This document shows, piece by piece, positions 2,987 to 60,564 of a DNA stretch of 64,000 bases (the first letter of the stretch is position 1; each line of letters opens with the position of its first letter). Under the pieces are notes generated by a model that was not told the DNA's origin, searched no databases, and saw nothing but the letters and a program-made list of their open reading frames with translations. This DNA comes from Cetobacterium somerae (GTDB lineage: Bacteria > Fusobacteriota > Fusobacteriia > Fusobacteriales > Fusobacteriaceae): the NCBI RefSeq assembly GCF_022430525.1, contig NZ_CP092519.1, positions 932,454 to 996,453 on the forward strand. The letters are read 5' to 3'. The position numbers and the translations under genes are program-made.

Positions 2987-3012
2987 TAAAAATCCTCCTA
3001 AAAAATAAATAA

Positions 3013-57943: not shown

Positions 57944-57971
57944 AAAAGGAAGAGTCGAAACTCTTCCTTTT
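57944..57971 (-). terminator. terminator-like hairpin between the alarmone synthetase gene and cls
   Basis: AAAAGGAAGAGT/ACTCTTCCTTTT stem with 4-base loop; on the minus strand it is followed by T-run. It leaves just 26 bases before the cls start, too little for an internal promoter. Confidence 0.82.
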
Positions 57972-58758
57972 ATTTGAATTTTAAATCCAACTCTCTGAAA
58001 TTATCTTCTAAACCTTTTCCATTAGAAAACTCTTTTTTTATTTTTTTTATAAACATACCCATTTCATCTGCACTTCCAACTATTCTATTAAAAATACCTA
58101 AGTATTCAGTTATAATTGGATTATCAACATCATATGGATATCTCATTAAATGGTCTATCTCACTCCAAGCCTCTTCAAAAACTGTCCTTACTTGAATCTC
58201 TACAAGTACCTCATCATGCTTTGTAACTGGAACACCAATTAGATAATGAATCGATCTGTAACCATGGTCTCTCACAATTATCTCACAATCTAAATCTTGA
58301 ATAGTATTTTTTAAATCTTGGATGTTATAGTCACCTCGTCTAATATTTATCTGAGGAGTCTCCTTTGTATCCCATAACTTTGTTATTTCACAATGAATTC
58401 CACGCCAATCATCTTTAAATAGATGTAGCACACGTATTCCTATGAGGTCAGTTATAATCTCTTTATAGTTTTCTACACTTATTCCACGGTCTGCATATTT
58501 GCGACCTTTTCTTATTATTTTTTCAACAAGATGTGTTGCTCTTTTAACTCGTCTTCTAACTGAGTGAACCCCTTCACTATCAATTAATTTAGATACTATA
58601 TGTTCAGCTTCTTTTTCTAAATAAGGAACTAATTTTATATAGTCAGCATAGATTTTCATAAGCTCATCCCAATTAAGACCAGTGGAGTTAAAGTACTCCT
58701 CTGTTATACAGAAAGCTTTAAAAAATTCTTCTCTGTCTATCGTATTATCTAATATCAA
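57970..58758 (-). CDS. small alarmone synthetase (RelA/SpoT synthetase domain)
   Basis: 262 residues with only the (p)ppGpp synthetase domain; no HD hydrolase, TGS or ACT regions. Visible: SVRRRVKRATHLVEKI (substrate-binding basic helix), ITDLIGIRVLHLF (metal Asp), HGYRSIHYL and VEIQVRTVFEEAWSEIDH (second metal Glu). It should make ppGpp/pppGpp like YjbM/RelQ. Start is placed at TTG 58758, 6 bases after AGAGGTG; GTG 58767 lies inside that site. It lies 16 bases after the stop of the frameshifted SIR2-like gene. Confidence 0.88.
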   Translation of the reverse strand: MILDNTIDREEFFKAFCITEEYFNSTGLNWDELMKIYADYIKLVPYLEKEAEHIVSKLIDSEGVHSVRRRVKRATHLVEKIIRKGRKYADRGISVENYKEIITDLIGIRVLHLFKDDWRGIHCEITKLWDTKETPQINIRRGDYNIQDLKNTIQDLDCEIIVRDHGYRSIHYLIGVPVTKHDEVLVEIQVRTVFEEAWSEIDHLMRYPYDVDNPIITEYLGIFNRIVGSADEMGMFIKKIKKEFSNGKGLEDNFRELDLKFK

Positions 58759-58774
58759 ATTAAACACCTCTTTA

Positions 58775-59749
58775 TTATTTTCTAGGTATCTTCTCTAATG
58801 AAATTTCACAAGTTTTTCTGTAAGCTACTGCTTCAGTAATTTTTATCTCTCTTGTTTCTACTGGAGCTACTGTAACTATCCTTTCTCTTATATTAAAGTC
58901 ATTTCCTTTAATAATGTGAACTCTTTCAACAGATATTCTATCTCCTTCAATTAACTGAACTTTATCTAAATCACATCTAAAGTTTACCCAACTTTGAAGT
59001 ATTGGAGTTTTATCAATAAGATTTAATAAAGCTAAAGAATACAATGAGTTTTCCTCTTGCAATAGTTTCTCTTTCTTTATTTCCTCTAATCCTAAAATCT
59101 CCTTTTCTAGTAAATCTAATTTCATAACCTCTATTCTATTTTCAAAAGATACTTTTCCTGTTACTAACTTACCACTTATTTCAATAAGTTGTCCCATAAA
59201 AATCTCTTTTAAAAGTTTTATATTCGGCATAAATCTTTTTACATTACTATACTGATATATCTTATAATAATAGTTATTTACTATTGTATTAAAAGATCCA
59301 TCATCTTTTAAATCAATCTCTAAACCTAATTTAAACTCTCTGTTTTTCATTTCTAAATATTTTCTTCTATTTATCTCAACTATTCTACTATGACAATCTT
59401 TCAAATTTAGCTGATCTATTTTTAAGTCGGTAACTCCAAAAGTTTTTATCAGGTTTTGATTTTTCATATCTTTTATCGTAGAAAATTCAATTGGCAACCT
59501 ATCCAATTTTAAAGAGCTATACCTTATCTCTAAAGCACTCTCTATCATTTTAAAATCTTCATTTTTAACTTCTAATACTTCTGGATCTCTTGTTTCTATT
59601 TCTTCTTCAATCTCTTCTGAAATTGTTTCCTCAGATGTAATTTCAACTTCAATATCTTCAGTAGTTTCTTCAACAACTACCTCTATTTTTTCATCTAAAA
59701 TTTCATCTTCTACTGTTTCATCAGAAATATCTGGAGTTACCGAAAGAGC
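58775..59749 (-). CDS. -1 frame extension of the SIR2-like gene (unknown C-terminal domain)
   Basis: The -1 frame entered at the slippery site 59749-59755 is open for 324 codons to the stop at 58775. It begins ALSVTPDISDETVEDEI, passes a very acidic linker of about 65 residues (poly Glu/Asp/Val/Thr) and enters a 257-residue charged domain from the internal ATG at 59548. I do not recognise that domain. Between 59749 and 59548 there is no ATG, GTG or TTG, and the ATG at 59548 has no ribosome binding site, so translation most likely depends on a frameshift from the upstream gene. Confidence 0.65.
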   Translation of the reverse strand, partial: ALSVTPDISDETVEDEILDEKIEVVVEETTEDIEVEITSEETISEEIEEEIETRDPEVLEVKNEDFKMIESALEIRYSSLKLDRLPIEFSTIKDMKNQNLIKTFGVTDLKIDQLNLKDCHSRIVEINRRKYLEMKNREFKLGLEIDLKDDGSFNTIVNNYYYKIYQYSNVKRFMPNIKLLKEIFMGQLIEISGKLVTGKVSFENRIEVMKLDLLEKEILGLEEIKKEKLLQEENSLYSLALLNLIDKTPILQSWVNFRCDLDKVQLIEGDRISVERVHIIKGNDFNIRERIVTVAPVETREIKITEAVAYRKTCEISLEKIPRK

Positions 59750-60564
59750 TTTTTTCCAATATATGCCTCTTTTAATTCAGAGTCATCTAATTGCATTGAG
59801 CATAGGTAGCTCTTTAACTCTTTGAAAAATTCCTCTTCACTGTGTGGTAACAATTTTATTCCTAATTCGTTTAATCTTTCAATTGTTTTTGTTTTTAAAA
59901 CATTTGAATTACTTACAGCGTAAATAACATCTTTTGGATTTACACCTGTTAATACAACTTCTAGCATGTCTATAAAGTCTGAATTATTTAAGTCTAATCC
60001 TAAAATTAGCGTTGGATAACTTTCCATATCCTCTTTTATATTTCTGAAAAAGTTTTTGTAAAAATCTAAAACTTTTAGCTTTCTAAAGTCTTGGATAGAA
60101 ACGAAAATCTTTTCATGTCTATTTACATCTCCAAGAATCTTATAATGCTTAACCTCTCCATTTGATGCTATTGTAAACTCTTCATCTGTCGGTAATATTT
60201 TTACTACTTTGTTGCAGTTTATATCATCTAAAACTATATCGTAATCTGTTGAAAAAACAGCATTAATCTTATTACTTTCAGAGAAAATATTTAATACCTC
60301 TGCAGTTTCTCTGTTTGTTTCGTACAAATTTTTGATTTTTTTCAATAATGAACTTCTACTGCTAACAACTCCATCTAAATAAACTTGGCTAACTTGGAAT
60401 AAAGAGTTTTCGTCTCTTATGTAGCCCTTTATATTTTCTTTCATATCTTTCATTAACAGTTTAGCTAACTCTCTTCTTGTTGGATATCCAGCGTTTCTTA
60501 CTAAAAAATCACCTAAAAAAAGATTAATTTTGTCTGTATCATTAAATTTATTGAAAAAACTCAT
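59737..60564 (-). CDS. SIR2-like domain protein (zero-frame product)
   Basis: 275 residues. NAGYPTRRELAKLL (24-37) and INAVFSTDYDIVLDD (about 100-114) occupy the places of the G-x-P-x-W-x-x-L and I-x-T-T-N-Y-D-x-L motifs of SIR2-like domains, but the NAD-loop glycines and the TTN are changed (LFLGDFLVR, VFSTD), so NADase activity may be lost. Later HSEEEFFKEL resembles the SIR2-like C-end. No membrane segment. Start ATG 60564 after AGAGGTG, promoter at 60610-60638. It ends right after an A AAA AAG slippery sequence. Confidence 0.75.
   Translation of the reverse strand: MSFFNKFNDTDKINLFLGDFLVRNAGYPTRRELAKLLMKDMKENIKGYIRDENSLFQVSQVYLDGVVSSRSSLLKKIKNLYETNRETAEVLNIFSESNKINAVFSTDYDIVLDDINCNKVVKILPTDEEFTIASNGEVKHYKILGDVNRHEKIFVSIQDFRKLKVLDFYKNFFRNIKEDMESYPTLILGLDLNNSDFIDMLEVVLTGVNPKDVIYAVSNSNVLKTKTIERLNELGIKLLPHSEEEFFKELKSYLCSMQLDDSELKEAYIGKKLFR
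59749..59755 (-). other. candidate programmed -1 frameshift site (A AAA AAG)
   Basis: In the zero frame the codons read GGA AAA AAG, giving the canonical heptamer A AAA AAG used by E. coli dnaX. An SD-like AAAGAGG (59772-59766) ends 10 bases upstream, the same geometry as dnaX. The zero frame stops three codons later (59739-59737). Downstream structure is weak (CAGA/TCTG within TTTC/GAAA). Confidence 0.65.

Follow-up and report, generated by a model that had tools for sequence, protein, structure and literature searches.

A Candidate Programmed −1 Ribosomal Frameshift in a SIR2-Like Chromosomal Gene of Cetobacterium somerae, Conserved across Fusobacteriaceae

Introduction

Outside dnaX, deeply conserved programmed −1 frameshifting is, to our knowledge, rare among bacterial genes that are not mobile. 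In Escherichia coli dnaX, the heptamer A AAA AAG is decoded by a sole tRNA-Lys(UUU), with a Shine-Dalgarno (SD)-like element about 10 nt upstream and a hairpin about 5 nt downstream, and two products arise from one start. In IS3-family orfA/orfB, a zero-frame stop soon follows the same heptamer, and a slip yields a long fusion. Parts of this description of the dnaX site are found in PMC3711429 and PMC5009743, the latter giving the sole tRNA-Lys as the condition that makes A AAA AAG slippery (shift-prone AAG codon). Recoding candidates in non-mobile genes, some with fused homologs, are described in two surveys, of GeneTack fs-gene clusters (PMC3711429) and of heptamer clusters (PMC4066793).

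Here, we report a gene in a 64,000-nucleotide stretch of the Cetobacterium somerae chromosome (NZ_CP092519.1; hereafter the window) in which a conserved programmed ribosomal frameshift to the −1 frame, of the kind known from dnaX and IS3, very probably extends a SIR2-like domain. A literature search on the SIR2-like frameshift gene found no paper, and no such Fusobacteriota gene is named in the main texts of PMC3711429 and PMC4066793. The finding also corrects annotation, since automatic gene calling would report a pair of separate genes and overlook the fusion.

Locus and reading frames

The heptamer, stop, TGA and open reading frame (ORF) coordinates given in the original prediction match the sequence base for base, and an AAAGAGG ends 10 nt before the heptamer as it had described (Table 1). 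The −1 frame is closed by TGA at 59779-59777 and thereafter open to 58775, which leaves 324 open codons downstream of the heptamer; inspection of starts and SD sequences agreed that its first ATG (59548) is without a ribosome-binding site. As a check on chance, in-phase A AAA AAG was counted within the ORFs of at least 200 aa in the window. Seven were found, followed by 324 open −1 codons in the SIR2-like gene versus 28, 11, 3, 3, 2 and 2 in the others.

Table 1. Features of the frameshift locus (window coordinates)
Feature	Coordinates	Strand	Basis
Zero-frame ORF, 275 aa, SIR2-like (ThsA-related) without NADase catalytic residues; short product	59737..60564	−	ORF, domain and residue comparison
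SD-like AAAGAGG, internal, 10 nt 5′ of heptamer	59766..59772	−	Sequence and ortholog alignment
Slippery heptamer A AAA AAG (codons GGA AAA AAG)	59749..59755	−	Sequence and orthologs
Zero-frame stop TAA, 3 codons past heptamer	59737..59739	−	Sequence and orthologs
−1 frame: acidic linker leading into the conserved C-terminal domain; predicted fusion of ~596 aa	58775..59776	−	
C-terminal domain, no known family; in 51/61 Fusobacteriaceae genomes examined	58775..59548	−	Profile searches
RelA/SpoT synthetase-domain gene, adjoining in most genera, likely co-transcribed	57970..58767	−	

Conservation in Fusobacteriaceae

Split orthologs were read family-wide (n = 32), and their offset is −1 in 32/32 and +1 in none. 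The original prediction had held that an A6G heptamer conserved in the same phase, with both frames kept, would support recoding; this was found in 25 species of five genera. Three split orthologs have A AAA AAA instead, and the four without an A-rich heptamer belong to genera g5 and g8 and keep the −1 phase. The zero frame stops within about 2 to 4 codons of the heptamer in every split ortholog that bears one, and the junctions outside Cetobacterium read GAA AAA AAG, AGA AAA AAG, AAA AAA AAG or GTA AAA AAA AAG, with two or three further codons before the stop. Within Cetobacterium, nine core orthologs with an intact junction were compared. All nine share GGA AAA AAG and a stop three codons on, carry GAGG 10 nt before the heptamer and keep the −1 frame open with no usable start close to the junction, and the junction bases GGAAAAAAGCT(C/T)TTTCGGTAA are kept in 9/9. 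Of the 61 family genomes, 52 have the N-terminal domain, nearly always as a single copy; the C-terminal domain was found in 0/37 other genomes of the phylum Fusobacteriota. On comparison, then, the site, its phase, both frames and the stimulators are conserved, and the locus combines an in-phase X XXY YYZ heptamer, a coding −1 frame without its own start, cross-species conservation and a stimulator.

Orthologs in one clean frame, which the original prediction had said would support an indel, do occur in other lineages (part of g7, g2 [G012], g11 and g12), never in Cetobacterium. These single-frame orthologs, in at least four lineages, identify the fusion as the conserved functional product. 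In a tree of 42 proteins (midpoint root, some long branches), they fall within or next to lineages that are split. This placement agrees with a frameshift that was present in the ancestor and has since disappeared at least four times, and the frameshift is probably ancestral in Fusobacteriaceae. Frameshifting is dispensable in the single-frame lineages, a point against the frameshift reading, as are the heptamer-less orthologs and the lack of a significant hairpin downstream of the Cetobacterium site; judged from these relatives, the frameshift serves to make the fusion, and the short form would not be needed in every lineage. One tree tip, G014, was automatically labelled hepA6G but has A AAA AAA as the heptamer in phase.

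Several relatives depart from the common layout. The fused g11 orthologs (L057, L058 and L048) have very long repetitive Glu/Lys-rich linkers, with open frames of 943 to 1,154 aa. In G031 (L053, just before position 3001), an A10 tract joins the frames and the other frame still ends CTC TCT CGG TAA; this may be a misread homopolymer, or the same switch working with its polarity reversed. The −1 phase is kept in g8 at L061 2021-2827 (G030), L060 4041-4889 (G018) and L103 (G061), and these loci have no slippery heptamer and no early start codons in the −1 frame. The g8 zero frame ends GGT GAT GC... TAT GCC stop, and a hairpin lies directly past the stop in both readable species. The g5 junction, CAA AAA CAG, is accompanied by a strong hairpin, and ribosomes might slip there on AAA in the P site.

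Stimulators and proposed mechanism

The GAGG upstream of the heptamer is invariant in the nine core Cetobacterium orthologs though the encoded residues vary (EA, EV). At codons 266 to 275, a single codon is used in 7 of 8 amino-acid-invariant columns, versus 34% ORF-wide, and this frozen synonymous choice is due in part to double coding in the overlap. Folding analysis gave no significant hairpin downstream of the Cetobacterium site. Ten species of genus g13 do have one, which begins 5 to 8 nt past the heptamer and whose z scores lie between −1.7 and −4.5, most of them under −2.5; strong hairpins are also present in g5. Across these two genera, the hairpin arms changed on both sides at 3 pairs (compensatory), and the covariation score of 0.292 (0.101 when shuffled; 0/500 shuffles as high) exceeds all slid versions, which is strong, not proof, since related sequences can beat shuffles even without structure and the arms were picked by hand from predicted folds. 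Five orthologous loci had no match up to an E value of 1 to the curated frameshift RNA families of Rfam (such as DnaX). The only tRNA-Lys among the tRNA genes found in the Cetobacterium genome is UUU.

We infer the slippage itself, as well as its efficiency and the role of the short form. Ribosomes would translate the SIR2-like domain as far as A AAA AAG, where the sole tRNA-Lys(UUU) in the P and A sites would re-pair one base back, aided in Cetobacterium by pairing of the upstream GAGG with 16S rRNA and in g13 by the downstream hairpin. Those that do not slip would stop three codons on (275 aa), and those that slip would append the linker and the C-terminal domain to give the fusion of about 596 aa. 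A mixed oligomer may have its subunit ratio fixed by the short form, as happens with gamma and tau of dnaX.

The A tract could also be a site of transcriptional slippage, as in Thermus dnaX, with RNA polymerase adding an A such that part of the mRNAs encode the fusion in one frame. This reading, to which the A8 to A10 tracts of G073, G075, G014, G069, G070 and genus g14 lend themselves, as does G031 (A10 in the fused frame, alternative-frame stop still there), is very unlikely: the tract is no longer than A6 in core Cetobacterium, G067 and G068 and is A7 in most others, and sister species differ in its length, from 6 to 9, without any change of heptamer phase or final G. Core Cetobacterium and two g13 species have just six A's, and sister g13 species have nine. 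Moreover, the covarying hairpin and the SD act on ribosomes, and the sole tRNA-Lys(UUU) favours a ribosomal slip. PMC3711429 gives An with n > 7 as the range for slippage by polymerase, so the short tracts with fixed phase make a ribosomal slip much likelier in Cetobacterium. Tract length and phase together would favour ribosomal over RNA-polymerase slippage; both could act in the species with A8 to A10.

Proposed translation of the −1 frame

Between the zero-frame stop and the domain start, the −1 linkers of the 32 loci comprise 3,099 codons with 0 stops, and the other two frames hold 264 and 558 stops over the same linkers. Linker length ranges from 16 to 264 codons between species, always in frame. 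The −1-frame C-terminal part of the nine core Cetobacterium orthologs diverges by codon position as 0.158/0.076/0.332, a pattern typical of coding in this frame.

The same linkers speak to whether the second ORF is translated alone, by internal initiation or termination-reinitiation and with no frameshift. Start codons are depleted (49 observed, 75 [sd 7] expected from composition), their positions are not conserved, and three loci (L002, L022 and L039) have no ATG, GTG or TTG at all; hardly any start in the other loci has a Shine-Dalgarno sequence, and most species are without an SD-equipped start anywhere in the 16 to 264 linker codons. Both domains are, in addition, fused in one frame in other lineages. 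Independent translation is therefore most improbable, though the g8 species without any slippery site would accommodate it, as would G071 (L041), where GAGGT stands six bases before an in-frame ATG directly past the zero-frame stop and reinitiation could also occur. The original prediction had named an assembly error or a natural A-tract indel as the main alternative. A sequencing or assembly error, or a recent indel or pseudogene, has next to no probability: the frames could be united by a single base of the A tract, but 32 independently assembled loci from many species share the split, with stop, heptamer phase and stimulators conserved, which refutes it for the Cetobacterium window, the A10 of G031 being the tract that may be misread.

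Protein domains and possible function

Pfam SIR2_2 was matched in the N-terminal part of 26/26 sequences (Cetobacterium ORF, E 8.5e-8), which bears out the SIR2-like assignment made from the ORF at the outset. The N-terminal 220 residues align to the ThsA SIR2 NADase (6lhx, E 1.6e-11). The catalytic His is absent from 26/26 sequences (the column holds L, F, M, N or Y), and the catalytic Asn is retained in 20, with D in its place in 5 sequences, that of the Cetobacterium window among them, and S in 1. Identity as a ThsA-like SIR2 NADase was considered and rejected: the sequence places the domain in the SIR2 fold, but with the His missing and Asn replaced by D in Cetobacterium, the protein is not classed as an NADase. 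The C-terminal domain had no meaningful match in Pfam, NCBIfam, PHROGs, PADLOC or PDB, and single-protein scans of viral contigs gave no match; the family alignment contained no stretch with conservation sufficient for such scanning. AlphaFold2 runs on the N- and C-terminal parts (four sequences) returned poor models (pLDDT 45 and 39).

The neighbouring RelA/SpoT-domain gene matches the YjbM model weakly (39.9 bits; cutoff, 320) and may therefore represent a distinct small synthetase group; outside core Cetobacterium, the neighbour is about 60 to 80% identical to the window copy. Gene order, with this gene next in most genera, suggests that the pair may act together. The SIR2-like protein might, tentatively, be a catalytically dead scaffold or nucleotide sensor that partners the alarmone-synthetase-like neighbour. 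A bolder and rather unlikely proposal is that the ratio of the dead SIR2-like protein to the fusion would be a regulated signal controlling the adjacent enzyme in a family-wide recoded operon, a signal that might, for example, follow the wobble modification of tRNA-Lys or the state of the ribosome, and that the heptamer-less g8 branch would reach the −1 frame by a different, undescribed route. The product of the upstream gene, mnmA, 2-thiolates tRNA-Lys; a regulatory link to it was considered and set aside, the adjacency occurring only in core Cetobacterium.

Comparison with known systems

Retention of a slip site across many genera in an ordinary chromosomal gene is rare. This single gene also provides a natural series (SD stimulator, hairpin, longer A tracts, no heptamer and single-frame fusion), in which one can test directly how stimulators turn over and whether the short product is needed.

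ThsA of Thoeris aligns with the N-terminal 220 residues, but the His is missing in all family members and the Asn in Cetobacterium, and the SIR2-like protein has no known sensor domain and no PADLOC match. The dnaX of Cetobacterium itself (L123 1462-2949) is a single frame with no long −1 extension; it holds two A-rich heptamers in phase, and a slip at them would meet a −1-frame stop after 5 and 3 codons, respectively.

The site is like that of E. coli dnaX in that A AAA AAG would be read by a sole tRNA-Lys(UUU), an SD-like element precedes it by about 10 nt and two products are predicted from one start, and the hairpin about 5 nt downstream is matched in g13. The genes are unrelated, however, and the stimulators are divided, with an SD and no clear hairpin in Cetobacterium and a hairpin in g13; the frameshift product would here be the longer one, and the zero frame stops at once. 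IS3-family orfA/orfB shares the heptamer, the early zero-frame stop and a long fusion made by a slip, whereas the SIR2-like gene is single-copy, cellular and non-mobile and is present in nearly the whole family.
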